Shown: positions 44,728 to 64,000 of the stretch, one piece after another
Layout of the letters: the number at the start of each line of letters is the position of its first letter
Position numbering within the stretch: position 1 is the first letter of the stretch
DNA from: Rosistilla carotiformis
GTDB lineage: Bacteria > Planctomycetota > Planctomycetia > Pirellulales > Pirellulaceae
Reading direction: 5' to 3'
NCBI RefSeq assembly: GCF_007753095.1
Contig: NZ_CP036348.1
Span: forward strand, 6,239,411-6,303,410
Length of the DNA stretch: 64,000 bases
Notes under the pieces: generated by a model
What the model was told of the DNA's origin: nothing
The model's input: the letters and a program-made list of their open reading frames with translations, nothing else
The model's database searches: none
Program-made: the position numbers and the translations under genes

Positions 44728-46476
44728 TTAGTTGCAGCCGGCCGCGCCGCATCCGCCACTGCAGCCCGCGGTTCCACAACCACCAATGCAACCACCCGCA
44801 GGTGCACATCCGCCGCCGACGCCATTGCCTTGGCAGCCATAGCTGGCCGCACCGGCTTGCGAAACTTGACCGCATGGGTAGATCGTTTCTTCGACAACCT
44901 TGGGCACCATTTTGCAGACCTGAACGGTCACTTCACGGACGCCGGTGAAAGGAACCTTGACCGTGTATTCTTCCACCGATTCTTCGGCAACACGATCGTA
45001 GCGGGTTGTTTCATACGCTTCGCTAACCACCTCGGGAACGTTCACGGTGTAAGAGACCTCTTTGGTCTTTTGCACGGGGTGATACGAAACGACAGGATAG
45101 CTTTCGGTACGTGTCTCTTCTTTGAACGACAATTCACGACGCGTGCGTTGACGTGTCTCTTCGGTGTATTCAACGACCTTGCGAGGACGCGTGCGAGTTT
45201 CGTCGACGTACTGGACAACCTTACGCACTCCGGTGCGTAGTTCGGGTTGGTAGACCAGATAGGTGTATTCGTAAGGAACCTGTTGTTGTTGTTCTTCGTA
45301 AACCGTGTAGCTGACCTCATGTTGCTGCGATTGCATTTCGACAACCGGGACTTCTTCGGTTTGAACGTTGGGAACCCAGACGCGGCGGGTGACCGTTTGC
45401 GTTGTGGGCGCGACGGCAACACTGTGCCCAACAACCGCTTGCTGACCACATCCACTGCAGCCGGTGCTGGCGACGGACGAAGTGCAGGGTGCGCTGGTCG
45501 CCGATTGGCAACCGCAGCTGCGGGCTTGGCAAGCACTGCAGCTGCCGCATTGGCGCGAGCCGCATGAACTGGCGTAGCCGTTGGATCCGCAACCGCCATA
45601 CGAACCGCAACCGCCCATGTTCGACACGGTGCCGGAGCCGTTGTAGCATCCCGGCGCGGCCGAGTGGACAGCAACGGGAGCCGGCGCGGCGATCACTTCG
45701 TCGACCTGAGTTTCCCAGTGACCGTAATCCTTCGTAACGGTCGTAGTGCGGGTGACGGGAACGTCGATGTTGATCAACCGTCGCTTGACGACAGGCACGG
45801 CGTTGGTGACGGTTTGGATCTTGGTTTCGGTTTGCGGGACGGGAACGTTCACGGTGTAAGTGAATTCTTCGTCGGTCAGCTGAGGAACGCTGACGGTGTA
45901 ACTCTCTTCACGCTCGACGATTTGCGGTACGCGAACGGTATAGGTTTCGGGAACTTCATTCCAAACCGGAACCGTATGCTTCTGCTCGATCGTTTTCATG
46001 TCGGTTTGAGCGACAAGTTCGGTGTAGTTGAGCGTTTTGCTTTCGGTCTTGGATTGCATCACGGTCCGCGTGCGGTACTTGGTTTCGGTAACCGGCACCG
46101 TGCGGTAGGTCGTCTTGGTGCGGTACCGAACCTCGTCGCGATATTCCGTTGTCGGTTGCGTGCGTGTTTCGGTCACGTACGTGGGTACCATCACGACTTT
46201 GGCAATCGTCATTGGACCGCACAACGGTTGCCGGACGGGAGCCGAAGCGTAGCTGGTGACAGCGCACCCGGCACTCGGCTGCGGCGCCGAATACCCGATG
46301 CTGGGCTGGGTGGCGTAGCTGACGCTGGATCCACAACCGGGTGAAACAGCACAACCGCCGCCGGCGCAGGGATCGGTGCACCCGCCACAAGGGATGCAAG
46401 GCTGCCCCGCGGTGACTGTCGTGACGAGGCTTAAGAGCATCCACGTCGCGGCTGCGAACGAGATTCGAGAGTTCAT
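44728..46476 (-). CDS. Cys-rich cell-surface protein with YTV repeats
   Basis: 582 residues from the ATG at 46476, with GGAG nine bases upstream; an in-frame start at 46518 is less likely. A signal peptide is followed by a Cys/Gly-rich segment (CIPCGGCTDPC, CAVSPGCG). Two beta-rich regions then carry many repeats with the YTV motif: ETYTVRVPQ, ESYTVSVPQ, FTYTVNVPVPQ, then VSYTVYEEQ, VSYTVNVPE and EEYTVKVPF. They flank a central Cys-rich stretch (CGSRQCGSCSACQ) and the C-terminus is again Cys/Gly-rich (GGCGTAGCSGGCG). YTV-motif Cys-rich proteins are reported as cell-wall components of Rhodopirellula. Disulfide cross-linking in the envelope is the likely role. Confidence 0.85.
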   Translation of the reverse strand: MNSRISFAAATWMLLSLVTTVTAGQPCIPCGGCTDPCAGGGCAVSPGCGSSVSYATQPSIGYSAPQPSAGCAVTSYASAPVRQPLCGPMTIAKVVMVPTYVTETRTQPTTEYRDEVRYRTKTTYRTVPVTETKYRTRTVMQSKTESKTLNYTELVAQTDMKTIEQKHTVPVWNEVPETYTVRVPQIVEREESYTVSVPQLTDEEFTYTVNVPVPQTETKIQTVTNAVPVVKRRLINIDVPVTRTTTVTKDYGHWETQVDEVIAAPAPVAVHSAAPGCYNGSGTVSNMGGCGSYGGCGSNGYASSCGSRQCGSCSACQARSCGCQSATSAPCTSSVASTGCSGCGQQAVVGHSVAVAPTTQTVTRRVWVPNVQTEEVPVVEMQSQQHEVSYTVYEEQQQQVPYEYTYLVYQPELRTGVRKVVQYVDETRTRPRKVVEYTEETRQRTRRELSFKEETRTESYPVVSYHPVQKTKEVSYTVNVPEVVSEAYETTRYDRVAEESVEEYTVKVPFTGVREVTVQVCKMVPKVVEETIYPCGQVSQAGAASYGCQGNGVGGGCAPAGGCIGGCGTAGCSGGCGAAGCN

Positions 46477-46878
46477 TCTTCTTGTCTCCAAAAGACTTGC
46501 GAACGCCAGTGCGTTCAATGCGATTTAAGGGCTCTGGCGGGCACGATCATAGCTCGTGCATTGAATGTTCGTGTAATACCGGCAGTCAGTATATTTAACC
46601 CAAAAGACCGTTAAAACAGGAAAGATAGGAATAAGTGGCGAAGTTTCCCGCTTTCCCCCCTGCGACTGAAAAACGCCACTGAACGCTTGGTGACGTATTG
46701 CTTTGCGAGGCGTTCGGCACCGGCACTTCCTTTTTGGGGGCAGCGGACTGCCGGCAGCCTGCTTTGCACCAAAAGGAATCGATTTCGTGACCTAATCTTT
46801 CTGCGGAGGCGCTCGCGCCACCGGCGCGCGTCGAAAGAAAACGCAAAATCGCAGTGATTCCTGGAGCTACCCATCCCG
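46477..46878. other. Divergent intergenic region
   Basis: 402 bp between the divergent YTV and TPR genes. It contains their promoters by position. I see no clear RNA gene or repeat. Confidence 0.5.
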
Positions 46879-49862: not shown

Positions 49863-51941
49863 ATGGCGGCCGGAACAAGCACCCCCAAGACACGTCGAAG
49901 CACTGCCGAAGCGATGGCCAAGGGCCAACGCGATATTTCGGTCAGCGAGTTCTTTGCAAAAAACAAGCATCTGCTGGGCTTCGACAATCCGCGAAAATCG
50001 CTGTTAACAACCGTCAAAGAGGCTGTCGACAACTCGCTCGACGCTTGCGAGGAAGCGGGCATTCTGCCGGTGATCTGGGTCCAATTGGAACCGACCCAAT
50101 CGGGGCGTTACCGAGTCTCGATCCAAGACAACGGGCCGGGGATCGTCAAGAAACAGATCCCGTTGATCTTCGGTAAACTGCTCTACGGCAGCAAGTTCCA
50201 CCGACTGCGGATGAGCCGTGGCCAGCAGGGGATCGGGATCAGCGCCGCCGGAATGAACGGGATGTTGACCAGCGGGCAACCGGTCAAGATCGTTAGCAAG
50301 GTCTCGGTCCGCAAACCTGCGCACTACTTTGAACTGCAGATCGACACCAAAAAAAATCAGCCGGAGATCATTAACGGCAAAGGGGATGGAATCGACATTC
50401 CTGCGGGGGAAAAGGGACGCCAGTACATCGAGAAGGCGGGGATCGCTTGGGAGACAGTGATCCCGCAGGAAGATGGAACCAGCGAAGACGTGACTCACGG
50501 CACACGGGTCACGATCGAACTGGCGGCCATTTACAAAAAGGGCCGGGGGAGCGTCGATGAATACATCGAACAGACCGCAATTGCCAACCCGCATATCACC
50601 GTGCACTACATCGACCCCGATGGAGCCAAGCGATCGTACTGGCGGAGCACGACCGAATTGCCCGCCGAAGCCAAAGAGATTAAACCGCATCCCTACGGCG
50701 TTGAACTGGGACATCTGATGGCGATGATGTCGGCCGATAGTGTCAACACGGTCGGCCAGTTCTTGCAGAGTTCGTTCTCTTGTGTAACCCCCGCAGTCGC
50801 GCGGCGGATCTGCGAAGCCGCGGGAATCAGCAGCCGGGTAACGACCAAGAAGATCGGCCGCGATGAAGCGGACAAAGTCTTCCACGCGATGCAGGAGGCG
50901 AATATTCGCCCCCCGGCAACCGATTGTGTTGTGCCGATCGGCCAGGGTCTGTTGCTGAAGGGAATCAGCACCGTCGTGCCGGGCGAGTTCTACGCGGCAT
51001 CGAGCCGACCGCCGGCGGTTTATCGCGGCAACCCGTTCATCATCGAAGTCGCGTTGGCGTACGGTGGCGGCCCCCAAACGCATGCGATCACGCGTGACGA
51101 AATGAACGAATTGATCGGGCAGACCGACGCGCGGACGCTGCGCAGGTTCCTGATGGATACGTTCAACGGCGTCGGCTCCGACGGTGCGGACAAGATCATG
51201 AAGCAAGCCGGGCTGAAGACCCGGAAGAGCCCCGCGAACCTCACGACCAAGGAGCGGTTGGCGCTGCACGACGCGCTGCAAAACGTCAGCATCAGCGAAG
51301 GGCAATCGATGCAGGTGATGCGGTTCGCCAATCGTGTTCCGCTGCAATTTCAAGCGGGTGCGTGTGCGATCACCCAAGCGGTGATGAGCATGAACTGGCG
51401 CAGCTATGGCTTGACGCAATCTCGCGGCAATCTGCCCAACGGTCCGGTTTCAGTGATGGTTCATGTGGCCAGCGTGTGGGTGCCGTTTACCAGCGAATCG
51501 AAAGAAGCGGTTGCGAATTATCCGGAGATCGAAAAGGAACTGCGGCTGTCGTTGCAGTTTGTTGGACGGAAGCTGGGAATGTTTTTGCGGCGTCGGCAAC
51601 GCGTGAAGCAAGAGGGGGAGCGGCGGAGCGTTTTCCTGCGGTATCTGGGCGAGGTCGCTCAAGCGGTTCACGGCATGAACGGCTGCAACACCCAAGAGGT
51701 CTACGACAATTTGCTGGAGGTTGCCAAGAAGAAGACAGCCGAGGCCGATGTGGTTCTCGACGAGCGCGGAAAAGTGATTCAGGACGAATCGGAACTCGAC
51801 CTCGGAGAGGGCGTGTTGATTGTCGACAACGCGGCCAAGACGGTGCCAGCCGTCGATGCCGCGGTCAAACCGGCTGCCGCGGAAGAGGAGACCGCCGAGG
51901 AAGACGAAGCGGTGGAACAGGGTGACCTGTTCGACGCCTAA
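49863..51941 (+). CDS. top6B: DNA topoisomerase VI subunit B
   Basis: 692 residues, longer than archaeal Top6B (about 530). It is the ATPase subunit of a type IIB topoisomerase that passes one duplex through another. The GHKL (Bergerat) fold is intact: VKEAVDNSLDACEEAG near residue 55, DNGPGIVKKQIPLIFGKLLYGSKF near 88-111 and SRGQQGIGISAAGMNGM near 118-134. A helix-two-turn-helix and transducer domain follow. The C-terminal extension is acidic and rich in Ala/Glu (VKPAAAEEETAEEDEAVEQG). The partner subunit A starts 143 bases downstream on the same strand. Topo VI is typical of archaea and plants and is rare in bacteria. Confidence 0.95.
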   Translation: MAAGTSTPKTRRSTAEAMAKGQRDISVSEFFAKNKHLLGFDNPRKSLLTTVKEAVDNSLDACEEAGILPVIWVQLEPTQSGRYRVSIQDNGPGIVKKQIPLIFGKLLYGSKFHRLRMSRGQQGIGISAAGMNGMLTSGQPVKIVSKVSVRKPAHYFELQIDTKKNQPEIINGKGDGIDIPAGEKGRQYIEKAGIAWETVIPQEDGTSEDVTHGTRVTIELAAIYKKGRGSVDEYIEQTAIANPHITVHYIDPDGAKRSYWRSTTELPAEAKEIKPHPYGVELGHLMAMMSADSVNTVGQFLQSSFSCVTPAVARRICEAAGISSRVTTKKIGRDEADKVFHAMQEANIRPPATDCVVPIGQGLLLKGISTVVPGEFYAASSRPPAVYRGNPFIIEVALAYGGGPQTHAITRDEMNELIGQTDARTLRRFLMDTFNGVGSDGADKIMKQAGLKTRKSPANLTTKERLALHDALQNVSISEGQSMQVMRFANRVPLQFQAGACAITQAVMSMNWRSYGLTQSRGNLPNGPVSVMVHVASVWVPFTSESKEAVANYPEIEKELRLSLQFVGRKLGMFLRRRQRVKQEGERRSVFLRYLGEVAQAVHGMNGCNTQEVYDNLLEVAKKKTAEADVVLDERGKVIQDESELDLGEGVLIVDNAAKTVPAVDAAVKPAAAEEETAEEDEAVEQGDLFDA

Positions 51942-52084
51942 GCAGCGGGTTAACACTGGACAACGTTCGAGGGTTGTCCCCAACAAGGACCGCGAGAAGG
52001 TCGCGGTGGGGAACGACCGGTATCAAGTTTGGCCTTCGTCACCGGTCGGTGCGGAGGTAGCGAAAACGATGGATTTCAAGAATC

Positions 52085-53242
52085 ATGGCTAAGAAAAAAC
52101 ACGCTCCCAAGAAGTTCGTTGCCGAAAAACCGAAGCCAGTCAAGCTGACGCCGATCGACAAATCGACACTCACCAAACTCGAGGGACTGGCGGACAAAGT
52201 CGTCAACGCCGCGATGCGGGGCCGCGACCCGTTTTTGGATATCCCCACGCGAGCGCTTTCGAACGTGCGTTTCAATAAGACGAAACGCTATATCGAGATG
52301 GGGAAGAACACGAACCGTCGCGAACTGTTCAATTTGAACCAAGCGCGGTCCTACATGCAGACGTTGTTGGCCGGCAGCGGATGCAAGGGTTTGATCGACG
52401 AAGGTAAAACGACAAGCATTCGTGGTCTTTATTACCGCATGAAGCATACGATCGAAGGTGCCAAAGAGGAGACCTTCAACAATCAGGGTGAATCCGACGC
52501 GGTGATCGAAGATTTGGAAGTGCTTGCCAATTCGCTGCGTGAGGAATTGCATCTCTATGCCGACAAACGAGGCGAGATGGTCGGCCCGATCGTCTTGGAA
52601 GACATGGGAGACGAGATCGATTGCGCGCGGATGGGCAGCGGTGGATACGGGATCCCATCGATCGTGGAACCCGATCGGATCAAATTCAAACGCTGCACCG
52701 CCGACTTCATCCTGCATGTAGAAAAAGGTACGGTTTGGCAACGGTTCAACGAAGACAAGTTCTGGAAAAAGCACAACTGCTTACTAACCCATGGTGCCGG
52801 GCAGCCGCCACGCGGCGTGCGTCGGTTACTGCATCGGATGCACAACGAATTGGAACTGCCGGTCTACTGCGTGCTCGATAACGACCCCTGGGGTTATTAC
52901 ATCTACAGCGTGATCAAGCAAGGATCGATCAACCTGGCGTTTGAATCGCAACGGATGACGATCCCCGACGCCAAGTTCGTGGGACTTCGCAGCATCGACC
53001 TCGAACGCTGCGGATTGGACATGAACGTAACGATCAAGATGAACGACACCGACCGCAAGCGGGCCAAGCAGATCATGAAGTACCCTTGGTTCGAGGGTAA
53101 AAAGCGTTGGCAAAAAGAAATCGAAAAGATGCTGCAGAACGATTTCAAGTTGGAAGTGGAATCGTTAATCAACCTTGGCATCAGCTACGTCACCGAGACG
53201 TACGTCCCAGAGCGTTTGGCCGAAGGGGACTGGTTGGATTAA
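52085..53242 (+). CDS. top6A: DNA topoisomerase VI subunit A
   Basis: 385 residues, close to the archaeal length (about 370). It is the DNA-cleaving subunit, homologous to Spo11. The CAP domain carries SIRGLYYRMKH, with Tyr117 (second Tyr) as the likely catalytic residue. The Toprim domain has the metal site: Glu213 in HVEKGTVWQRF and Asp265/Asp267 in VLDNDPWGYYIYS. A basic N-terminal tail (KKKHAPKKF) precedes the domain. It forms an operon-like pair with top6B. Confidence 0.95.
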   Translation: MAKKKHAPKKFVAEKPKPVKLTPIDKSTLTKLEGLADKVVNAAMRGRDPFLDIPTRALSNVRFNKTKRYIEMGKNTNRRELFNLNQARSYMQTLLAGSGCKGLIDEGKTTSIRGLYYRMKHTIEGAKEETFNNQGESDAVIEDLEVLANSLREELHLYADKRGEMVGPIVLEDMGDEIDCARMGSGGYGIPSIVEPDRIKFKRCTADFILHVEKGTVWQRFNEDKFWKKHNCLLTHGAGQPPRGVRRLLHRMHNELELPVYCVLDNDPWGYYIYSVIKQGSINLAFESQRMTIPDAKFVGLRSIDLERCGLDMNVTIKMNDTDRKRAKQIMKYPWFEGKKRWQKEIEKMLQNDFKLEVESLINLGISYVTETYVPERLAEGDWLD

Positions 53243-53880: not shown

Positions 53881-54381
53881 CTAGGCAAGTATGGCGACCG
53901 GCGTGACGCTTGGGATTGGCGATTTCGAATGCTGTTTCAGCACCAACTCCATCGATACGGATCCCCATGCGGTGTCAAACCGAAGGCAGGTGCCGTGGTT
54001 CTCCGACCCAAAAGCGATCTCGCATTGACCTAAAATCACCGACGGCAAGGACATGTTCGTCGCTTCATTGCCTAACAATACGCGAGCCCGACCGGCAATC
54101 ATGTTGACAATTTCGCCCACCGCGTCGACGACATCCGAGTTCAGTTCGTGGGGGGTATCGCCCAACAAGGCTCCGGTCGCCTTGTAGGCAAAGTCGCGGG
54201 ATACGCTGAGCGCGGCCGTTCCGCAGAGCGCTCCGGAGATGCCGATAATACCTTTGATCTCATTGATGCGATCGGCGGTCGTCGATTCCCCGACCTCTTT
54301 CAACTTGGCATCACAGCCAAGGCAACTGTTAAAAATTTCTTCGACAGCTCGCTGGAAAGCTTCGTTTTCGGTAGTCAGCAT
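53881..54381 (-). CDS. cheX: Chemotaxis phosphatase CheX
   Basis: 166 residues from the ATG at 54381 (MLTTENEAFQRAVEEIF), with AAGGGG eight bases upstream. The CheC/CheX/FliY-type phosphatase motif E-x2-N is at Glu90/Asn93 (GEIVNMIAGRAR), followed by a beta segment of the CheX fold (SLPSVILGQCEI). CheX removes phosphate from CheY-P. It lies on the minus strand just downstream of cheY and diverges from cheA, so the pair is likely one transcript in the chemosensory cluster. Confidence 0.85.
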   Translation of the reverse strand: MLTTENEAFQRAVEEIFNSCLGCDAKLKEVGESTTADRINEIKGIIGISGALCGTAALSVSRDFAYKATGALLGDTPHELNSDVVDAVGEIVNMIAGRARVLLGNEATNMSLPSVILGQCEIAFGSENHGTCLRFDTAWGSVSMELVLKQHSKSPIPSVTPVAILA

Positions 54382-54469
54382 CTTACATGCCCCTTTAATT
54401 TGTTTTGGTTGGAACGTGGTCATGGGTCCGGATGGAGCTCGCGACAGTCACTGGCAAGCCGCTGCGTGG

Positions 54470-54844
54470 TCAGGAAGCCAGCGCGCTGAGATGCTTAACA
54501 AGTTTCTCTTGCAGCAGCTCGTTTTCAAACGGCTTGGGAAGAAAATCGGAAACGCCCGCCTGGATCGCTTCGATCACCCGACCGCGTTCGGATTCGGTGG
54601 TGATCATAATCACCGGGATGGTCGAACCCGCCTGGCGAATGTTTTTCAAGAGATCCAAACCGGTCATCATCGGCATGTTCCAATCGGTCAACACCATGTC
54701 GAACTGGGTTGTTTGAAAGGCGGTCCACGCTTGGGCTCCGTCGGCAGCTTCGACGACGTCGGTAACGCCGGCTGCATTGAGTGCCCGCAGTATGATCTTG
54801 CGCATGACGCCCGAGTCATCCGCCAAGAGAACCTTTTGGTCCAT
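54470..54844 (-). CDS. cheY: Response regulator CheY (single receiver domain)
   Basis: 124 residues from the ATG at 54844 (MDQKVLLADDSGVMRKI), with AGGA nine bases upstream; an in-frame start at 54928 is less likely. Key residues are intact: acidic pair Asp9/Asp10, phosphoacceptor Asp54 (LTDWNMP), Thr82/Thr83 (ITTES) and Lys104 (LPKPF). No output domain is present. It is probably phosphorylated by the CheA at 55303 and dephosphorylated by CheX. It is first in the cheY-cheX pair and 458 bases from cheA. Confidence 0.93.
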   Translation of the reverse strand: MDQKVLLADDSGVMRKIILRALNAAGVTDVVEAADGAQAWTAFQTTQFDMVLTDWNMPMMTGLDLLKNIRQAGSTIPVIMITTESERGRVIEAIQAGVSDFLPKPFENELLQEKLVKHLSALAS

Positions 54845-55302
54845 CGTCTCGTTCCTTTTCACTGATGTGTTTCGATATTGATTCGGCGCGAACCGATAGC
54901 GTGACCTATATTTTAGGTAGCAACTCAATTCAATTTCGAGTTCGCGTGGCCCTAACCACGCTTCACCCTAGATTACCTTAGCATGCAAAAGTGAGAACTG
55001 CGGGAAAAGAGTAGAAATTTACGCCCCCCAAAGATCAGCATGGATCTGATTCACCACGACATCCTCCACCCGCGTTTCTATTAAAGGAAGCGTTGGCGTG
55101 TCGATGGTTGGTCGTTACCCACCACAATCGTTATTTCCGGCAATTCTCACTTGCCGGACTCTTTCGCGCATGGAATCTTTGCCGGTTCTTCGGCATCGCG
55201 CGCCTCCGACGTCAAATTCACGGCTTATGTTTCGAGAGCCATGAATCAGGTTAGCCCGCTGCGCTCGCGGGGAACTTATTTAATCTCCTCGGAGGCAACG
55301 TC
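54845..55302. other. Divergent control region of the chemosensory cluster
   Basis: 458 bp between cheY (-) and cheA (+). It holds both promoters by position, and a strong Shine-Dalgarno GGAGG for cheA, whose start is GTG at 55303. I see no repeat or RNA gene. Confidence 0.5.
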
Positions 55303-58116
55303 GTGTCTAACGAAGACCAAGAAATACTCGATGAATTTGTTGTTGAATCACTCGAACACCTGGCCGATATCGAAAGCCAATTGCTAACGATCGAAGCTGC
55401 CGGTGCGGATGTCGACGTCGATCTGGTGAACACCGTCTTTCGCGGCGTCCATTCCATCAAAGGCGCTGCGGGGTTCCTGGGATTACCGCGAATCAACGAA
55501 CTGGCACACTGCCTGGAAAACGTATTGAATCTGATGCGTGAGGAAAAGCTTGTCCCCACCTCGTCGATCGTCGATGGCTTGTTATCCGCTTCGGACACCC
55601 TTCAGGCGATGGTCGCGGATGTCGGATCCTCCAATGAAGTCGACATCTCCGACCACCTCGTCGCCTTGGAAAACTGCATCGCCTCCGGTGTTGCCGGAGG
55701 GGTGACAACGCAGCCCACAGCAATTGCGGAAACGCCGCCGCCGGCCCCACCCTCGCCACCCTCGCCGCCGGAGGCCGATGCCATCGAAGTGCAGATCCGC
55801 GAGGACCTGCCGTTGGCCGAAGCCCTGGATCAGGCGGTCGCCGATGCCAAGCGGGCCCGCGAACAGGCAGCAGCCGAAGCGGCAGAGGCTGCAAAGCTGA
55901 AGCAACCCACGAGCGTCCCCGCTCCCGTCATCGACTCTTCGTCGGCCAGCTTGGAACCCGGAGAAGGGCGAAAGGCAGCGGGCCCCAAGTCTGCCGCGGG
56001 TGGAGAATCGAGCATTCGCGTTTCGGTCGAAACCGTCGATCATTTGATGAACCTGGCGGGCGAATTGGTGCTCAGCCGGAATCAATTGCTGCAGGCGCTT
56101 GCGGCTCGCGAAAACAATGGCTTCGAATCGGTAGCGGCACGGATCAACCAAGTGACCACGGAAATGCAAGACGCGATCATGAAGACGCGGATGCAGCCGA
56201 TCGGTAACGTCTTCAATAAGTTTTCACGGGTCGTTCGCGATCTAACGGCCAAGCTGGACAAACGGATCAATCTATCGATTGAAGGCAGCGAAGTCGAAGT
56301 CGACAAAACGATTATTGAAGCGATCAGCGATCCGTTGACCCATCTGATTCGCAACGCGGTCGACCACGGAATGGAAACGCCAGCCCAACGCTTGACCGCC
56401 GGTAAGGCCGAATATGGCAACGTCTACCTTCGAGCACAGCCACAATCAGGGAAGGTCGTGATCGAGATCCAAGATGACGGCCGCGGGATCAACGCCGACG
56501 TGGTGCGAAACAAAGCTTTGGATAAAGGCTTGATCACCGCCGACCAAGCCCAACAGATGAGCGATCGCGAAGCGGCCCGGTTGATCTTCCTGCCAGGATT
56601 TTCGACCGCCGAACAGATTAGCGATGTCAGCGGCCGCGGAGTCGGTATGGACGTCGTCCGCACGAACATCGAAAAACTGGGAGGCAGCGTTGAAATTTTC
56701 ACGACGCTGGGAACGGGAACGTGCATTCAAATCACGCTGCCACTAACTCTGGCGATCATTCCTTCGTTGATTGTTCGTTCGGGAGCCGACCGATTGGCGA
56801 TCCCGCAGGTGAACATCAATGAATTGGTACGGGTGCGTCCCGAGGATGCGAAAAACCGTTTTGCACGGGTCAAAGGAGCCGACGTCTTGCGGCTTCGCAA
56901 TTCCTTGCTGCCAGTGGTCCGGTTGAACGAAGTCTTCGGTGGCCAGACCAGCGGACGGACCATCGTCCAGGACCTAGCTCAAGAGGGTGCTGCGGCACAA
57001 AACGTGATCGTTGTCGAAACCGGACAACAGCGTTACGGAATCTTGGTCGATGGCTTATGCGATTCTGAAGAAATCGTGGTTAAACCGGTCGGCGCCCAAT
57101 TGAATGATTGCCCTTGTTTATCGGGAGCGACCATTTTAGGCGACGGCCGCGTGGCCTTGATCGTCGATGTCTCCGGGATCGCCAACTACACCAACCTCCG
57201 CGCCATAACCGAACGCGCCAACGCGGAGGCTGGCGAAAAACAGAACGCGTCGCGATCGTCCAGCGAGGTGCAATCGGTACTGTTGTTCAACAACCGCGAA
57301 CAGGAAAGCTTCGCGATTCCGATGGGAATGATCTCGCGAATCGAATCGATTGCCGCCAGCGAAATCGAAAGCGTCGGGCACCGCGAGATGCTGCACTCGC
57401 GTGGCGTCGCGATGCCATTGATCCAATTGGACATGTGCGTCACGGCGGCCCCGGCCGACCGATCGGGGCAACTGTTTGTCATCGTCTACAGCGTGTCGGG
57501 CCGAGAGGTCGGATTGCTGGCCTCCCATATCGAAGACATCCGTGCGATTCCGCTGGACGTCGATACCGACGTTCACAACGAACGTGGAATCGCAGGATCG
57601 CTCGCGATGGAAAACCGCACGGTTCGCGTGTTGAATTTACACGACATCACGCACACCGCATTGCCCGACCTGAAGGGCGAACCGAAAAAACATGTCAAGC
57701 CGGACCTGCATCTGTGTTTGGCCGAAGATTCGGCATTCTTCCGTAAACAGGTCTCCAATTTCCTCCGCGATGCGGGCTTCAACGTCTCCGATTTTGAAGA
57801 CGGCCAAGAAGCCTGGGAAACGTTGATTCAAGACAAAACAGCTTTCGATCTCGTGGTCACCGACATCGAGATGCCACGCATGAACGGACTCGAATTCTGT
57901 CGCCGGATCAAAGCCGATCCCCAACTGTGCCGACTGCCAGTGATCGCGTTGACGTCCTTGGCATCCGAATCGGATGTCAGCAACGGCCGCCGCGCGGGGA
58001 TCGACGATTACCAGGTCAAGCTTGATCGCGAGAACCTGATCCGCGCGATTCGTGAACTCAGTGAAAAAGCAATGTCCCAAAAAGCAGCAGAACCATTGAA
58101 AGAGGTGTTGGTATGA
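55303..58116 (+). CDS. cheA: Hybrid chemotaxis histidine kinase CheA with receiver
   Basis: 937 residues; GTG start with GGAGG seven bases upstream. Order: Hpt with His50 (FRGVHSIKGAAGF), an Ala/Pro/Glu-rich linker with no recognisable P2 domain, dimerisation helix (VDHLMNLAGELVLSRNQLL), ATPase with DPLTHLIRNAVDHGME near 340-355 and DDGRGINADVV, and SGRGVGMDVV. A CheW-like domain follows (IIPSLIVRSGADRLAIP), then a second CheW-like domain (VLLFNNREQESFAIPMGM) and a C-terminal receiver with Asp854 (VVTDIEMPRMNG). All kinase residues look intact. The built-in receiver and double CheW-like domain are features of non-flagellar or alternative chemosensory arrays. It overlaps cheW by 4 bases. Confidence 0.95.
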   Translation: MSNEDQEILDEFVVESLEHLADIESQLLTIEAAGADVDVDLVNTVFRGVHSIKGAAGFLGLPRINELAHCLENVLNLMREEKLVPTSSIVDGLLSASDTLQAMVADVGSSNEVDISDHLVALENCIASGVAGGVTTQPTAIAETPPPAPPSPPSPPEADAIEVQIREDLPLAEALDQAVADAKRAREQAAAEAAEAAKLKQPTSVPAPVIDSSSASLEPGEGRKAAGPKSAAGGESSIRVSVETVDHLMNLAGELVLSRNQLLQALAARENNGFESVAARINQVTTEMQDAIMKTRMQPIGNVFNKFSRVVRDLTAKLDKRINLSIEGSEVEVDKTIIEAISDPLTHLIRNAVDHGMETPAQRLTAGKAEYGNVYLRAQPQSGKVVIEIQDDGRGINADVVRNKALDKGLITADQAQQMSDREAARLIFLPGFSTAEQISDVSGRGVGMDVVRTNIEKLGGSVEIFTTLGTGTCIQITLPLTLAIIPSLIVRSGADRLAIPQVNINELVRVRPEDAKNRFARVKGADVLRLRNSLLPVVRLNEVFGGQTSGRTIVQDLAQEGAAAQNVIVVETGQQRYGILVDGLCDSEEIVVKPVGAQLNDCPCLSGATILGDGRVALIVDVSGIANYTNLRAITERANAEAGEKQNASRSSSEVQSVLLFNNREQESFAIPMGMISRIESIAASEIESVGHREMLHSRGVAMPLIQLDMCVTAAPADRSGQLFVIVYSVSGREVGLLASHIEDIRAIPLDVDTDVHNERGIAGSLAMENRTVRVLNLHDITHTALPDLKGEPKKHVKPDLHLCLAEDSAFFRKQVSNFLRDAGFNVSDFEDGQEAWETLIQDKTAFDLVVTDIEMPRMNGLEFCRRIKADPQLCRLPVIALTSLASESDVSNGRRAGIDDYQVKLDRENLIRAIRELSEKAMSQKAAEPLKEVLV

Positions 58117-58571
58117 GCAAGACGTTAGAACCCAAGAGTGTGGTTGAGGATCAACAGTTCGCCACGTTTTATGTTGGCGATGTGTTGTTGGGGATCGCCA
58201 TCGACCGTGTTCGAGAAATCAATCGACTTTCGGAGATCACGTGCGTTCCGCATGCCCCGCGGCATGTCCTAGGGGTTGTGAATCTGCGTGGTGAAGTCGT
58301 TCCGCTGTTGGACTTGGGAATTCTGCTGGGCTTGCCAAGCACCCAAGTTGGCAGCGACTCGAAGAACATGATTGTTCAAGCCGATGGCCAATTATTGGGG
58401 CTGGTCGTGGATCGCGTCTCCGACATCCTAGCGGTTTCACACGAGTCGATGTCATCGCCGCCGGCGAACGTCAACGCGGTCGATGGACGCATGATCCAGG
58501 GCATCCACACGCTTCCCGACGATGTCGTGATTTTACTGGATATCGATCAAGCTCTGGCAAATTCTCAATAA
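58113..58571 (+). CDS. cheW: Chemotaxis coupling protein CheW
   Basis: 152 residues. The ATG overlaps the cheA stop (ATGA), so translation is probably coupled. FATFYVGDVLLGIAIDRVREI, the CheW signature HVLGVVNLRGEVVPLLDLG and LGLVVDRVSDIL are present, ending in ILLDIDQAL. It links CheA to receptors at the membrane, here most likely the receptor at 58702. Confidence 0.95.
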   Translation: MSKTLEPKSVVEDQQFATFYVGDVLLGIAIDRVREINRLSEITCVPHAPRHVLGVVNLRGEVVPLLDLGILLGLPSTQVGSDSKNMIVQADGQLLGLVVDRVSDILAVSHESMSSPPANVNAVDGRMIQGIHTLPDDVVILLDIDQALANSQ

Positions 58572-58701
58572 TCTGTAGACACCTAGCGTTGCCATGGCAG
58601 ATTGGCAACCCATACTTTCCTTAACTTGGCTTCCCAACCGGTATCGCTGCACGAGAAACTGCATCACGGTTGGATCAAGCAACACCACCTGGGGCACTCC
58701 A

Positions 58702-61095
58702 ATGCGTATTCGAACTCGTCTGACCACTATCATCTTGTGCTGCGGCATGGTCCCCATGCTGGCCGCCTGCGGCGTCATCTACAACCTCTCGAGCAAGAAC
58801 CTCGCTCAGATGGAGCAGATCGCAATCGCCGATCTGAAACAAAAGTCATCGGAGAAAGTGATCTCGCTTCGAGAGATCAAGAAACAACAGATCGTCGAAT
58901 ACTTCCATTCGATCCGCGATCAAGTCATCAAGTTTTCCGAAGACGGCATGATCGTCGACGCGATGCGAAACTTCCGCGAGCCGTTTCGCCGTTACGCCGC
59001 GGACTGTGGATACGATCTCGAGAAAATCGATGAACTGCGAGACGAATTGACGACCTATTATACTCGTGAATTCGGCAAGGAGTATCGCAAACAAAACGAT
59101 GGCCAAGATCCCAACGCGGCCCGAATTTTAGGGCAATTGGATCCTGCTTCGATCGCGTTGCAATATGCGTACATCCAGGAGAACGAAAATCCGCTGGGCA
59201 CCAAACATTTGTTGAACGCAGCGAACGACGGCACGGTCTATTCCGAACAACACGCCAAGATTCACCCGATCGTCCGCGGGTACTTGGAGAAATTTGGTTA
59301 CTACGATGTTTTCCTGTGCGATTCCGAAACCGGCGACATCGTCTACTCAGCCTACAAGGAACTCGATTTCTCCACATCGCTGATCGATGGACCGTACGCC
59401 AAGGCTAACATTGGCAAAGCGTTTCAAGCGGCCAATGCCTTGCCATCGGCAAATGAGTTTGTGATTGTCGACTTTGAACAGTACACGCCTTCGTACGAAG
59501 CCCCCGCCAGTTTTATCGCGTCGCCCATTTTCGATGGCCAGCAACGGTTGGGAGTTGCGATTTTCCAAATGCCGATCGACCGCATCAACCAGGTCATGAC
59601 GATGGGGACCGGCATGGAAAACACATGCGAAACCTACATCGTGGGCCCCGGCAATATCCTCCGCAGCGATACCCGCCGCGATCCGGAACATCACAACATC
59701 GTGTCGAGCTTCCGGTACCCGGACAAAGGTTCGGTCAGGACCAAGGCGATTGCCGCGGCCCTGGCGGGAGAAACAGGAGCCGATGAGATCGTTGGCTATT
59801 TAAGCGATCACGTGCTGTCGGCGTACAGCCCCGTCGACGTACTGGGCATGCGTTGGGCGATCGTGGCGGAGGTCAGTCGCGATGAAGCGTTCGCCGCAGC
59901 CGACGGGATGGCCGCCCTTTCCGCAGCCTCGAAACTACAGATGTTTTCGTGGAGCCTCGCGTTGGCGGGACTTGCCGCGCTGTGCGTCACCGTGATCGCA
60001 GTTGTCCTTTCCCAACGCTTGGTGGCACCGATCAATCGCTCGGTCGCGATGCTGCGAGACATCGCCGAAGGGGAAGGCGATCTGACGAAACGTTTGGACG
60101 CCAGCCGCAATGACGAATTAGGGGAGATGGCGAAATGGTTTAACGTCTTCGCCGCCAAATTGCAGTCGATCATTCGCAGCGTGACACAGAACGCCACGAC
60201 CCTAAATCAAGCTTCCGCTGAACTAGCGAACACGTCGACTCGGTTGTCCGAAGGGGCCAGCAAAGCCACATCGCAATCGAGCACCGTAGCCGCCGCTGCG
60301 GAAGAACTGTCGGTCAACATGAGCAACATGGCGCGGTCCACCGAAGAGGTTTCGGGGAACGTTCAAACGGTGTCGATTGCAGTCAATGAGATGAACCAAT
60401 CGATTGTCGAAGTGGCTCAAAGTGCCGAACGATCGGCATCGGTCGCGGGACAGGCGGCGCACCTGGTCGAACTTTCCAATGACAAGATTTCGGAACTGGG
60501 CCTTGCCGCGGATGAAATTGGCAAAGTGATCCAAGTGATTCAAGACATTGCCGAACAAACCAACCTGCTGGCGTTGAATGCCACGATTGAAGCGGCACGG
60601 GCAGGCGAGGCGGGGAAAGGCTTTGCCGTCGTTGCCACCGAAGTCAAGGAGCTTGCCAAACAAACCGCTGCGGCCACCGACGACATTCGTCGTCGCATCG
60701 AAGGCATCCAAGGTTCGACCGGAGACGCGGTCAAAGCGATTCGTGAGATCAGTGAAGTGATCAACAATGTCAACCAGGCCTCGCTGACGATCGCATCGGC
60801 AGTGGAGCAACAGAGCATGGCGACCAAGCAGATCTCCGACAACGTCTCGCAAACGGCGCAGTCGGCGGCCGCCGTGGCGCGAAGCGTTCAGGAATCGGCA
60901 ACGGCAAGTCGAGAGATCACTCAAAACATCTCGAGTGTCGACGGTGTGCTGCGACAAACCTCCGACAGCGCCAACAACACGCGCCGCGCCGGTGATGAAT
61001 TCAGCGACTTGGCAAACCAGCTATCCAAACTGGTCGGCCAATTTAAGACTGGCGACGCCGCCGATGCGGAGAACCCTTCCTCGCTAGCGTGTTAG
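58702..61095 (+). CDS. Methyl-accepting chemotaxis protein (receptor)
   Basis: 797 residues from the ATG at 58702 ([20 protein letters not shown]); the frame opens earlier at 58594 but the extra part is untypical. The first membrane helix (about 7-27) is followed by a large periplasmic sensor (about 30-410) of dCache type. A second membrane helix ([18 protein letters not shown], about 415-435), HAMP and a long cytoplasmic coiled coil with the signalling tip [20 protein letters not shown] follow. Methylation helices lie on each side. The ligand is unknown. It lies 130 bases after cheW in the same direction. Confidence 0.95.
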
Positions 61096-61118
61096 CGGGA
61101 CCTCTCGATTGGATCAGG

Positions 61119-61174
61119 GTAGCGGACGAGCTCAGCGCTCCCAGCTTCTGGCGACGCGCTGTCTCGTCCCTGCA
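61119..61174. repeat. Palindromic element, family B, degenerate copy
   Basis: Arms share GGACGAG (61124-61130) with CTCGTCC (61163-61169) and CAGCGC (61133-61138) with GCGCTG (61156-61161). It resembles 24212-24277 in the outer part only. It lies between the receptor and cheB genes. Confidence 0.6.
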
Positions 61175-61245
61175 CCGGCTTTCCAATATCCAATTCAAAT
61201 AACACACGTCTCAGCCCGTATCCCTCATTCCCCGATAGGTTTCTG

Positions 61246-62376
61246 GTGTCCACAACGCTACGAAAAATTTTGATTGTCGACGATTCGCCGGTGTACCGCC
61301 GATTTGTCGTACAGACCCTGGAAGGTCTGCAAGGACATACGGTGGTTGGTCAAGCAGCCGACGGCGTTACGGCGCTACAGGCGATTGCGACCCTGCGCCC
61401 CGATGTGGTGACGCTGGATGTCGAGATGCCCGGCTTGAACGGCCTGGAGGTGCTCAAGCAGATCAAGAAATTGGCTCCCCATACCGAAGTGATCATGCTC
61501 AGCTCGCTGACGCTACAGTCGGCGAGCCTAACGATCCAGGCGATCGAATCGGGGGCCTTCGATTTTGTTTTGAAACCGCAAGGGATGGATTTGGAATCCA
61601 ATCGCAGAAAGCTTCGCGATGCGTTGTTCCAACGGTTTCAAGCGATCTCGCAAAACGTAAAACGCCACGCGTTTCCCGCCCCGTCCCAACCGCTGGCTTC
61701 GCGGCCGGGACCCTCGTCGTCGCCAGCGTCACTTGGCGGCCGAGCCAACGGGCACCGCGACGCCCCACGGCGAGAATTTGGGACGCCGCAAGTGATCGTG
61801 ATTGGAATTTCGACAGGCGGTCCTCAGGCCCTGCGGTCGGTCGTCTCCCAATTGCCTCGCGACTTCTCGGTTCCGATCGCGATCGTGCAACATATGCCGC
61901 CATTGTTTACACGATCGTTGGCCGAAGAACTGGACCGGATCTCCCCGTTGCAGGTTTTCGAAGCAGCCTCGGGCGATAGTTTGCAGGCAGGACAGATTGC
62001 CATCGCGCCAGGCGGATTTCATTTAACGCTGCAACGCATGGCTGCGGGTATCACTCTGCGGGTGAACGATAATCCGCCCGAGCGCAGCTGTCGCCCATCG
62101 GTCAACATCCTATTTCGATCCGCCGCCGCACAATTCGGCAACCGGGCGATCGGGGTGGTGATGACGGGCATGGGAGACGATGGCACCGAAGGCGCCCGGG
62201 AACTGCGAACGCAAGGGGCTCGAATCTTGGCCCAAGACGCCCAGTCGTGTGTCGTTTACGGCATGCCGTGCGCCGTCGCGGAAGCGGGACTCGTAGACGA
62301 AGTCGTTGGATTAAATGATGTCGCATCCAAACTGACTGCACTCACCAGACGTCCGGCATTGGTAGGCAGATCATGA
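61246..62376 (+). CDS. cheB: Chemotaxis protein-glutamate methylesterase CheB
   Basis: 376 residues from a GTG at 61246. The receiver domain has the phosphoacceptor Asp58 (TLDVEMPGLNGLEVL). A linker rich in Pro/Ser/Arg follows (about 140-180), then the methylesterase with the catalytic triad Ser189 (GISTGGPQAL), His216 (VQHMPPLFT) and Asp312 (MGDDGTEGA). It demethylates or deamidates receptor glutamates and is activated by CheA. It overlaps cheR by 4 bases. Confidence 0.95.
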   Translation: MSTTLRKILIVDDSPVYRRFVVQTLEGLQGHTVVGQAADGVTALQAIATLRPDVVTLDVEMPGLNGLEVLKQIKKLAPHTEVIMLSSLTLQSASLTIQAIESGAFDFVLKPQGMDLESNRRKLRDALFQRFQAISQNVKRHAFPAPSQPLASRPGPSSSPASLGGRANGHRDAPRREFGTPQVIVIGISTGGPQALRSVVSQLPRDFSVPIAIVQHMPPLFTRSLAEELDRISPLQVFEAASGDSLQAGQIAIAPGGFHLTLQRMAAGITLRVNDNPPERSCRPSVNILFRSAAAQFGNRAIGVVMTGMGDDGTEGARELRTQGARILAQDAQSCVVYGMPCAVAEAGLVDEVVGLNDVASKLTALTRRPALVGRS

Positions 62377-63212
62377 AGACGCTCGAAGCAAGCAGTGACA
62401 TCATCGGCATCGTCGATGTGATCGAACAATTATGCGGCATTCAGGTCGACGATCGTAAGCTATATTTGCTGGAACATCGATTTGGAGAATTGATGCGTGA
62501 GGCCTCGTTCTCCAATTATGCAGAACTCGCCCGTCGCGCACGCGAGGACCGCGAGTTACAACAACAGATTGTTGAACGGATTACGACGCGGGAAACACTG
62601 TTTTTTCGTGATGGCAGTCCGTTCCAAGCCCTACAACACAAACTACTACCCGAAATAATCGACGCACGATCGACGACCCGGAATCCTAAACGTTTGCGTT
62701 TGTGGTCGGCTGCCTGCAGCAGTGGACAAGAACCGTACAGTTTAGCGATTACGCTCCGAGAGCTACTGCCCGACGTGGATCGCTGGGATATCCAGATTCT
62801 GGCCAGCGATATTTCCTCGACTGCGATCGCACAAGCCAAGCAAGGCGCATATTCCGAACATGAAATCTCACGTGGACTCTCGCCGGCGCAATTGAACCGC
62901 TACTTTCGCAAAGAGGGCAGTCTTTGGCGAGTCAACGATAATTTAAGATCGATGATTCGATTTGAAGAACGCAATTTTTTGCAACCGTTTACCTCCGTTG
63001 GCATGTTCGATGTCGTATTTTGTCGTAATTTAGCAATCTATTTTTCAGACACCAATCGCAAAGACCTGTTTCATCGGATCGCCAACCAAATGGTTGACGA
63101 CGGCCTGCTGTTTATCGGTGCCCAGGAATACCATGCCGACATGAGTCAACGTTACACGATGGAACAACACTGCCGCGCGACCGTGTACCGTCCTAAAAAA
63201 CATTTCCTATAA
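62373..63212 (+). CDS. cheR: Chemotaxis protein methyltransferase CheR
   Basis: 279 residues; ATG overlaps the cheB stop. The N-terminal helical domain (LYLLEHRFGELMREAS) is followed by a SAM-dependent methyltransferase: TTRETLFFRDGSPFQAL, LWSAACSSGQEPYSLAI near 110-126 and MFDVVFCRNLAIYF. It methylates receptor glutamates with SAM and works against CheB. No TPR tail is present. The next gene follows after 43 bases. Confidence 0.95.
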   Translation: MKTLEASSDIIGIVDVIEQLCGIQVDDRKLYLLEHRFGELMREASFSNYAELARRAREDRELQQQIVERITTRETLFFRDGSPFQALQHKLLPEIIDARSTTRNPKRLRLWSAACSSGQEPYSLAITLRELLPDVDRWDIQILASDISSTAIAQAKQGAYSEHEISRGLSPAQLNRYFRKEGSLWRVNDNLRSMIRFEERNFLQPFTSVGMFDVVFCRNLAIYFSDTNRKDLFHRIANQMVDDGLLFIGAQEYHADMSQRYTMEQHCRATVYRPKKHFL

Positions 63213-63255
63213 CCATCTGATCCACGGTACCCCGCCGCAAGGATTTTGACACGCC

Positions 63256-64000
63256 ATGAATGCTGATGAAATACAAGCTTTGCTCGACGCAGCTCCCCAA
63301 TCCGTCGTGCCCGCCACCAGCGTTGCCGTCCTGAATGAGGTGGATGAAGTCGAGCCCGCGGCCGAAGCGGCTGCCGAAGACGAACAACCAGGGCCCCCCG
63401 AATTCGCATTTGGTGGCGACGAACCGGAAGAGGAATTAAAGGTCTCGGTTGTCGACGAATCGGCCACATCGACCGTTCAGGTTCAGCCCGCACCACAGGA
63501 AATGCCCAGCGAACCTGCCGCAAGCCCCATCGCTGCCCCTCAGGTTGCAGCGATCGCGACCGGCCCCGCTTCGATTCCGATGTGGATCAAAGGGACCGCG
63601 GGAGTTGCGTTGGTGCTGTCGATCGCGGCGACCACATTGGGATTCATCAACCGCAGCGTTTTGGAAGCCCGGATCGAACAGCTGGACGTTCAAAATGTGA
63701 GCCTCCGCGACCGCTGTGATTTCCAGCAGGCGTTGTGCCAACAATTGATGGGCAATCCAGGAGATCCCGATAAACCGTTCTGGGATGTCCGATCGCATGT
63801 GTTGAATCTCGACCAAGCGTTTCTCGCCCAAGTCCCCACACAAGTGGGAAGCGTCAATGTGATTCGCTCCCGCCCCACCTCGTTGAACGAACGGACGCAA
63901 TTACATTTTGAAATCACCAACCCCAACGCGTTGACCTTGCATCGCGGACAACTGATCGTCCGCACATCCAGCGTTCCCCACGATCCAGGCCAGGACTACG
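63256..64000 (+). CDS. Membrane protein with FliM-like N-terminal peptide, 3' end outside window
   Basis: At least 248 residues from the ATG at 63256; the frame runs off the right edge. Residues 1-12 (MNADEIQALLDA) match the FliM/FliY N-terminal pattern xxDEIxALL, which binds phosphorylated CheY in flagellar switches. An acidic, Pro/Ala-rich linker follows (about 13-105), then one membrane helix (about 110-132, VALVLSIAATTLGFI), a short coiled coil (LEARIEQLDVQNVSL) and a beta-rich part starting with FWDVRSHVLNLDQ. No FliM core domain is present. It lies 43 bases after cheR. It could be an output or docking protein for CheY-P; this is inferred from the peptide and context. Confidence 0.75.
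   Translation, partial: MNADEIQALLDAAPQSVVPATSVAVLNEVDEVEPAAEAAAEDEQPGPPEFAFGGDEPEEELKVSVVDESATSTVQVQPAPQEMPSEPAASPIAAPQVAAIATGPASIPMWIKGTAGVALVLSIAATTLGFINRSVLEARIEQLDVQNVSLRDRCDFQQALCQQLMGNPGDPDKPFWDVRSHVLNLDQAFLAQVPTQVGSVNVIRSRPTSLNERTQLHFEITNPNALTLHRGQLIVRTSSVPHDPGQDY

Follow-up and report, generated by a model that had tools for sequence, protein, structure and literature searches.

A FliM-like N-terminal peptide on a non-C-ring membrane protein in the che block of Rosistilla carotiformis: a candidate docking site for CheY

The last gene of the chemotaxis block of Rosistilla carotiformis encodes a membrane protein whose first 12 residues resemble the N-terminal segment of FliM, and from its sequence a CheY-docking function of this protein is plausible. 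FliM is the textbook landing place of CheY-P. If the proposed reading is true, the chemotaxis signal would reach a further client, located at the envelope. The peptide is of a known kind, and it is its setting that is new. Among the matches listed for open-licence articles in PMC there was no report of FliM-N-type peptides in tandem or on a membrane protein outside the C-ring, an absence from the literature that we regard as weak evidence. Throughout, the window denotes the whole stretch of DNA that was analysed (64,000 nucleotides).

Gene and protein architecture

The open reading frame begins with an ATG at 63256, has the N-terminus MNADEIQALLDA and is still open at the window edge. The whole gene (G000:C1:6302666-6303622) codes for 318 amino acids, and its final 212 bases, including the stop codon, lie outside the window. 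It is separated from cheR by a gap of 43 bases. We judge the start codon to be well placed, because an in-frame stop a few codons 5' of the ATG and the AAGGA listed below are both kept in the three genomes of the genus.

Features of the membrane-protein gene, with the evidence for each in brackets:

63239..63243, forward strand: AAGGA, ribosome-binding-like (kept before the start in 3/3 genus genomes)
63256..64000, forward strand: membrane-protein gene, 318 amino acids in full (open reading frame and full-genome gene; orthologues in 3/3 genus genomes)
63256..63291, forward strand: residues 1-12, MNADEIQALLDA, FliM-N-like candidate CheY-docking peptide (conservation, FliM matrix, model helix 3-12)
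63292..63579, forward strand: Ala/Pro/acidic linker, predicted disordered (sequence, AlphaFold2)
63592..63651, forward strand: single membrane helix, residues 113-132 (Kyte-Doolittle)
63652..63750, forward strand: helical stretch, coiled-coil-like by inspection, residues 133-165, with Cys154 and Cys161 (sequence, model)
63856..64000, forward strand: first part of the beta-sandwich domain at the C-terminus, which spans residues 201-301 of the complete protein (AlphaFold2, Foldseek)

The linker is made up of 95 residues, among them 18 D/E, 1 K/R and 33 A/P. Kyte-Doolittle analysis gives one hydrophobic membrane stretch in the protein (residues 113-132); in one orthologue out of three, no segment of 19 residues scores above 1.54, which is under the usual value of 1.6. 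Given the long acidic tail, the N-terminus is presumably oriented towards the inside. The full-length AlphaFold2 model (a weak one, with a mean pLDDT of 46.5 from 3 sequences) contains helices at residues 3-12 and 118-165 and beta strands at 201-301; pLDDT averages 60 over the first ten residues and lies between 23 and 39 in the following blocks up to residue 130. Modelled alone, the C-terminal 152 residues form a beta-sandwich with a pLDDT of 65. Two conserved cysteines, Cys154 and Cys161 (63715-63738), are spaced by seven residues in the helical stretch immediately beyond the presumed membrane helix, a placement suited to dimer cross-linking.

A Pfam scan of the membrane protein yielded no match at E values up to 1, and the FliM middle domain and the FliN-type C-terminal domain (PF02154 and PF01052) are absent by the same scan. 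NCBIfam likewise gave no match for this protein; of the three orthologues, one had a chance-level match (E 0.095). The original prediction had described an acidic linker, one membrane helix, a coiled coil and a beta-rich domain with no FliM/FliN core, an anatomy with which the model, the Kyte-Doolittle analysis and Pfam agree; it had also asked whether the complete gene would turn out to belong to an unrelated known family, and the full 318-residue protein matches no Pfam or NCBIfam family.

Match to the FliM N-terminus

The CheY-binding motif of the FliM N-terminus is written LSQxEIDxLL (PMC5677366), and this N-terminus occupies the groove between helices 4 and 5 of CheY-P, with EIDALL as its motif (PMC9126983). 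A FliM-like N-terminus on the gene after cheR, the starting point of this analysis, is indeed present: the protein starts with MNADEIQALLDA, has an E-[IV]-x-x-L-L core at its N-terminus and is modelled as a helix over residues 3-12. The gap-free alignment to LSQxEIDxLL reads M-N-A-D-E-I-Q-A-L-L, with Met for Leu and Asn for Ser, followed by Ala-Asp-Glu-Ile-Gln-Ala-Leu-Leu. The hydrophobic face of the motif is intact, and the Ser-Gln ahead of the core is replaced by Asn-Ala. The Ile-Asp pair of the core is absent from all three orthologues, which have Ile-Gln instead; in Caulobacter FliM the ID57WA change abolishes CleA binding (PMC5677366). At the Asp position, planctomycete FliM starts have Glu (20/22), Ala (1/22) or Gln (1/22) and none has Asp, so that within this phylum the motif's Asp is no strict feature.

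We consider it somewhat more likely than not that the peptide binds CheY. The helix might instead bind another partner, such as the receiver of CheA or CheB or an array protein, in which case the resemblance to FliM would be a matter of convergence. Such a partner would be in line with the Ile-Gln in place of Ile-Asp, with the receiver domains that the operon's CheA and CheB carry too, and with the conserved residues 22-28 (see below), which suggest other contacts of the tail. It is made unlikely by the gap-free E[IV]xxLL, which is rare among the gene starts of the genome, and by the position of the gene, which shares a block with cheY in all three genomes that have it.

The chance sample consisted of 954 kb of the genome (13%), in which a simple script called 586 genes. 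E[IV]xxLL occurs within the first 18 residues of one of these 586, namely the membrane-protein gene. A FliM score matrix was derived from 22 planctomycete FliM N-termini out of 31 FliM loci (omitted were L044, L045, L050 and L059, with no frame, L046, L055, L064 and L067, with a wrong frame, and L068, with a degenerate start). This matrix ranks the membrane protein second of 586, after the genome's own FliM, whose top rank is circular since it is among the 22 matrix peptides. The peptide scores 9.3 (9.7 with other background frequencies) and that of one orthologue 6.0 to 6.4, well below the 20.9-27.2 of the three FliM starts scored alongside (27.2 for the genome's own; one of the three is a matrix member). 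The tail of CheZ is a CheY binder as well, and it scores -17.7, from which it follows that the matrix does not measure binding. If every start codon is allowed, several other open reading frame starts in che neighbourhoods, probably unused, score equally high or higher; the matrix alone is therefore not decisive, and it is conservation and position that carry the case. By the matrix, the membrane protein contains one copy of the motif. A phmmer search with residues 1-28 against PDB chains of at least 20 residues gave no match.

Conservation and selection on the tail

The gene is present in all three genomes of the genus and is always the last of the che block. Across the three orthologues, residues 1-12 are identical save for one position, which is D or E. 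Summed over the pairs of genomes, the codons of these residues show 10 silent and 2 replacing differences, against 1 silent and 21 replacing in residues 13-21 and 49 silent and 137 replacing in the linker behind (Fisher p 5e-6 and 1e-4, respectively, for pairs that are non-independent). The silent changes within the peptide indicate that the amino acids are held and not the RNA. The expectation that the N-terminal residues are conserved while the linker varies was thereby confirmed for three genomes of one genus. Residues 22-28, SVAVL[ND]E (63319-63339, inside the linker), are also conserved in the three orthologues, with 7 silent and 2 replacing differences; the tail thus has a second conserved element, which is a possible second candidate for binding.

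The gene turned up in this genus alone, so the conservation analysis covers three genomes. A family-wide search detected it in 3/149 genomes, all of the genus, and an order-wide search matched 5/396 genomes, of which 3 are real. The apparent homologues outside the genus, L039 (E 0.003) and L040 (E 0.008), were rejected, being unrelated proteins by inspection. Two scans of genome contigs, in which near records may be missing, added no further homologues. A motif scan of 27 non-genus cheR loci (L010-L036, with flanks of about 1.5 kb) revealed no equivalent gene after cheR; its sole matches, both discarded, were L015 (a CheX-like start, by inspection) and L016 (an internal start in CheR). When the cheR flanks of 20 genomes were scored with the FliM matrix out to as much as about 10 kb, the scores were scattered. 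A CheR match was obtained in 49/60 relatives, so the survey covers part of the cheR genes.

It might be argued that the N-terminus is kept for translation or stability and has no partner, the gene being that of an envelope protein which merely follows cheR. The motif is short, the gene is restricted to one genus, similar matrix scores are seen at other, probably unused, starts, and shuffled versions of the protein reach the score anywhere along their length in 20/1000 cases (63/1000 and 12/1000 for the orthologues). At the N-terminus itself, by contrast, the score is reached in 1/5000 shuffles only (5/5000 for each orthologue), among the stretches compared silent changes clearly outnumber replacing ones for both the peptide and residues 22-28, but not between them or in the linker behind, and synteny is kept in 3/3 genomes. 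Taking both sides together we consider such a coincidence to be improbable.

The che block and its pathway

The gene order is cheA-cheW-mcp-cheB-cheR-orf on one strand, with cheX and cheY divergent upstream, and this arrangement (cheXY/cheA-W-mcp-B-R-orf) is kept in 3/3 genus genomes.

Features of the che block, with the evidence for each in brackets:

53881..54423, reverse strand: CheX-type CheY-P phosphatase (Pfam CheX, 6.6e-19)
54470..54844, reverse strand: CheY, single receiver domain, presumed partner of the peptide (Pfam Response_reg, 1.2e-30; PDB CheY matches)
55303..58116, forward strand: CheA with a C-terminal receiver domain (Pfam; no second CheA dimerisation domain was detected genome-wide)
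58113..58571, forward strand: CheW (Pfam)
58594..61095, forward strand: methyl-accepting chemotaxis protein (Pfam)
61246..62376, forward strand: CheB (Pfam)
62373..63212, forward strand: CheR (Pfam)

CheY, whose start was taken by inspection at the ATG of MDQK, is an ordinary receiver. Two of its alignments to CheY chains in the PDB extend through what we take to be the alpha4-beta5-alpha5 stretch. The PDB matches include the sequence common to 1f4v, which is a complex of CheY with the FliM peptide (PMC9126983).

The genome also encodes a FliM that starts with its own CheY-type N-terminus, LSQNQVEDLIRAM, at a large distance from the che block on the chromosome (1.41 Mb versus 6.30 Mb), as well as FliN and a second FliN-like protein. 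The latter is a short FliN-like (SpoA) protein seen in 3/3 genus genomes (L157, L158 and L159) away from FliM and FliN; L158 corresponds to G000:C1:4074382-4074591. One CheA dimerisation domain was found in the genome. With one CheA, a FliM and a FliN, the che block is the one candidate for flagellar control. The original prediction noted that the cluster has no flagellar genes, which is true of the che genes tested in 53881-64000; its hint of a non-flagellar pathway is not supported, given a FliM with a CheY-type start, FliN and a single CheA. That the protein serves as the dedicated, non-flagellar output of a chemosensory pathway without flagellar control, as might be suggested by the lack of a flagellar gene among these che genes and by the remote position of FliM, is very improbable in view of the single CheA dimerisation domain and of the presence of FliM and FliN.

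We regard an additional client for the flagellar CheY as likelier than such a dedicated pathway. The che block is probably the flagellar chemotaxis pathway, with the membrane protein as an extra CheY client and, under the simplest reading, FliM as the main one. The che blocks at five non-genus cheR loci are without the membrane-protein gene, which implies that the pathway does not need this protein.

Some other genes of this region were recorded in passing. A glycine-rich open reading frame is located on the opposite strand about 1 kb downstream of the membrane-protein gene. Just before the che block (49863-53242) are the genes for topoisomerase VI B and A, i.e. both subunits of a type IIB enzyme (Pfam); type IIB topoisomerase is mainly an archaeal and plant enzyme. 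On the reverse strand at 44728-46518 a Cys-, Ser- and Gly-rich protein is encoded with repeated YTVxVPxV-type units and a Pfam match below the cut-off only.

Proposed mechanism

We lean towards seeing the protein as a docking partner for the operon's CheY that is anchored in the membrane. CheY would be phosphorylated by CheA, after which the amphipathic helix MNADEIQALLDA would occupy the CheY groove that is otherwise filled by the FliM N-terminus. The flexible acidic linker of about 95 residues would give this helix access to the cytoplasm. Once captured, CheY-P would be tethered at the envelope through the membrane helix, the coiled coil and the outer beta-sandwich. Given the single CheA and the genome's own FliM, the membrane protein would be a second client that competes with the flagellar switch. 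It may act as a buffer or localiser of CheY-P that shapes motor signalling, or as an effector that relays CheY-P occupancy to the periplasmic beta domain; a periplasmic output of this kind seems doubtful to us. From the topology with the N-terminus inside to the binding, its dependence on phosphorylation and its consequence, we infer these steps from the peptide, its conservation, the gene block and the architecture, all four of which are observed directly. A parallel is offered by other planctomycete proteins with tandem FliM-like motifs, a disordered-looking tail and one membrane stretch.

Tandem motifs in other planctomycetes

In a strict search at the DNA level, the pattern M-x-x-[DE]-E-I-x-A-L-L matched 32/392 planctomycete genomes; a reversed-pattern control, which does not mimic coding sequence, had one match among the matches listed. 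Thirty pattern loci were read. They comprise the window gene, one FliN-like protein (L183) and four proteins with internal repeats (L184-L187), in which several internal copies of [LM]GQxDIDALL-type motifs are found; by inspection, the remainder are proteins of other kinds, short reading frames or starts internal to a gene.

A profile built from three of L184-L187 matched 34/392 genomes (16 f31, 13 f53, 1 f114 and 4 others). G018, G080, G763 and G683 were not counted as arrays (L222 of G763 and L224 of G080 were read, G018 and G683 are unread). Array-type matches, with motifs of the type [GS]QDDIDALL, thus amount to 30/392 planctomycete genomes. The array proteins read number 28: 16 from f31 and 12 from f53/f114, the latter from the 12 of 14 f53/f114 genomes whose locus could be read. 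By a loose pattern they contain 1-14 motif copies each. By the FliM matrix, which is too strict for DIDALL arrays and too lenient with all starts allowed, the 16 f31 proteins have a median of 4 copies (range 0-8; shuffled mean 0.05) and the 12 f53/f114 proteins a median of 1 (range 0-7, with none in 5/12; shuffled mean 0.08).

The f31 array proteins (L190-L193, L195-L210) were found in 16 of the 23 f31 genomes sampled. They consist of a disordered-looking motif tail, one membrane stretch and then a helical, TPR-like C-terminus, with weak TPR matches; the exceptions are L210, which is cut before the membrane stretch, and L209, where an extension that probably lies outside the gene shows another stretch. 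For seven of them a Pfam comparison gave no family above the cut-off. The f53/f114 proteins (L211-L221, L223) are long, without a membrane stretch and coiled coil by inspection. They start like MGDINQDDIDKLL and have 2-9 SQDDIDALL-type copies by the loose pattern, and most of those read far enough share a stretch like LFLDELHRLVRRLESELD.

CheW domains are present in 29/30 array genomes (the CheW-free one, G659, is 72% complete) against 7/10 f31 and f53 genomes without an array match, a difference (Fisher p 0.04, with many genomes incomplete) that is no more than suggestive of an association between arrays and CheW domains. At the three Pfam-annotated f31 loci, L190, L192 and L232, a receiver protein is nearby in every case, and in L192 and L232 a histidine kinase is also near the array gene. 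Other neighbours are an HDOD protein (L192) and, in L190, one protein of TPR/STN type and another that is very weakly STAS-like; no che gene was seen by Pfam among the tested neighbours of these three loci. In G546 (f53) a flagellar group of flgI, rod-binding and flgN genes lies about 5 kb from the array gene.

The window protein was rejected as a member of the f31 arrays (hhalign probability 18.9 against seven f31 proteins). It shares with the f31 and f53/f114 proteins a FliM-N-type peptide on the disordered-looking tail of a non-C-ring protein, and with the f31 proteins the one membrane stretch; these proteins differ from it in their TPR-like or coiled-coil remainder and their 1-14 motif copies. 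FliM-N-type peptides on non-C-ring proteins appear to have arisen more than once in the phylum, and this repeated origin raises the prior for the window protein. A wider proposal, that Planctomycetota repeatedly use such peptides outside the switch, singly or in tandem, is tentative; the proteins would be multivalent sites at which CheY-P or CheY-like receivers dock, and chemosensory output would be collected, buffered or read at the envelope by proteins other than those of the C-ring. With tandem arrays, docking of CheY would become a module that can be reused, and the arrays would be a natural setting in which to ask whether chemotaxis output is buffered or multiplexed in bacteria.

Comparison with known systems

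CheZ is a soluble phosphatase of Proteobacteria and no switch component, with a C-terminal docking helix for CheY-P. It resembles the window protein in having such a helix (a putative one here) on a non-switch protein, and differs in the C-terminal position of its helix; the window protein has no Pfam match.

The best fold match of the C-terminal part is SadB (PDB 4c47; Foldseek E 2.1e-4, TM 0.52, from a weak model), a trimeric Salmonella lipoprotein with a coiled coil and a beta-sandwich. The combination of these two elements is what both would share, whereas the identity is 11% and SadB is a lipoprotein that is not known to have a FliM-like tail.

The closest likeness of the peptide itself is to the N-terminal CheY-binding segment described for FliM and FliY (PMC9126983; PMC5677366): an extreme N-terminal position, an amphipathic helix, an E-I-x-x-L-L core and then a flexible linker. 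Unlike FliM and FliY, the window protein has no FliM or FliN/SpoA domain, the core Asp is Gln, and what follows the linker is a membrane helix and a beta-sandwich in place of the C-ring parts. MotV and MotW of Vibrio cholerae were dropped as a parallel, as the passages on them describe no FliM-like peptide on either (PMC8789113).

In type IX secretion, the CheY-like receiver protein PorX docks on the inner-membrane protein PorL through a short hydrophobic patch (PMC5005315). Receiver docking on the cytoplasmic part of an inner-membrane protein is what we propose here as well; in PorL, however, the patch is C-terminal and not of the EIDALL type, PorX has a PglZ domain, and the pair belongs to a secretion system.
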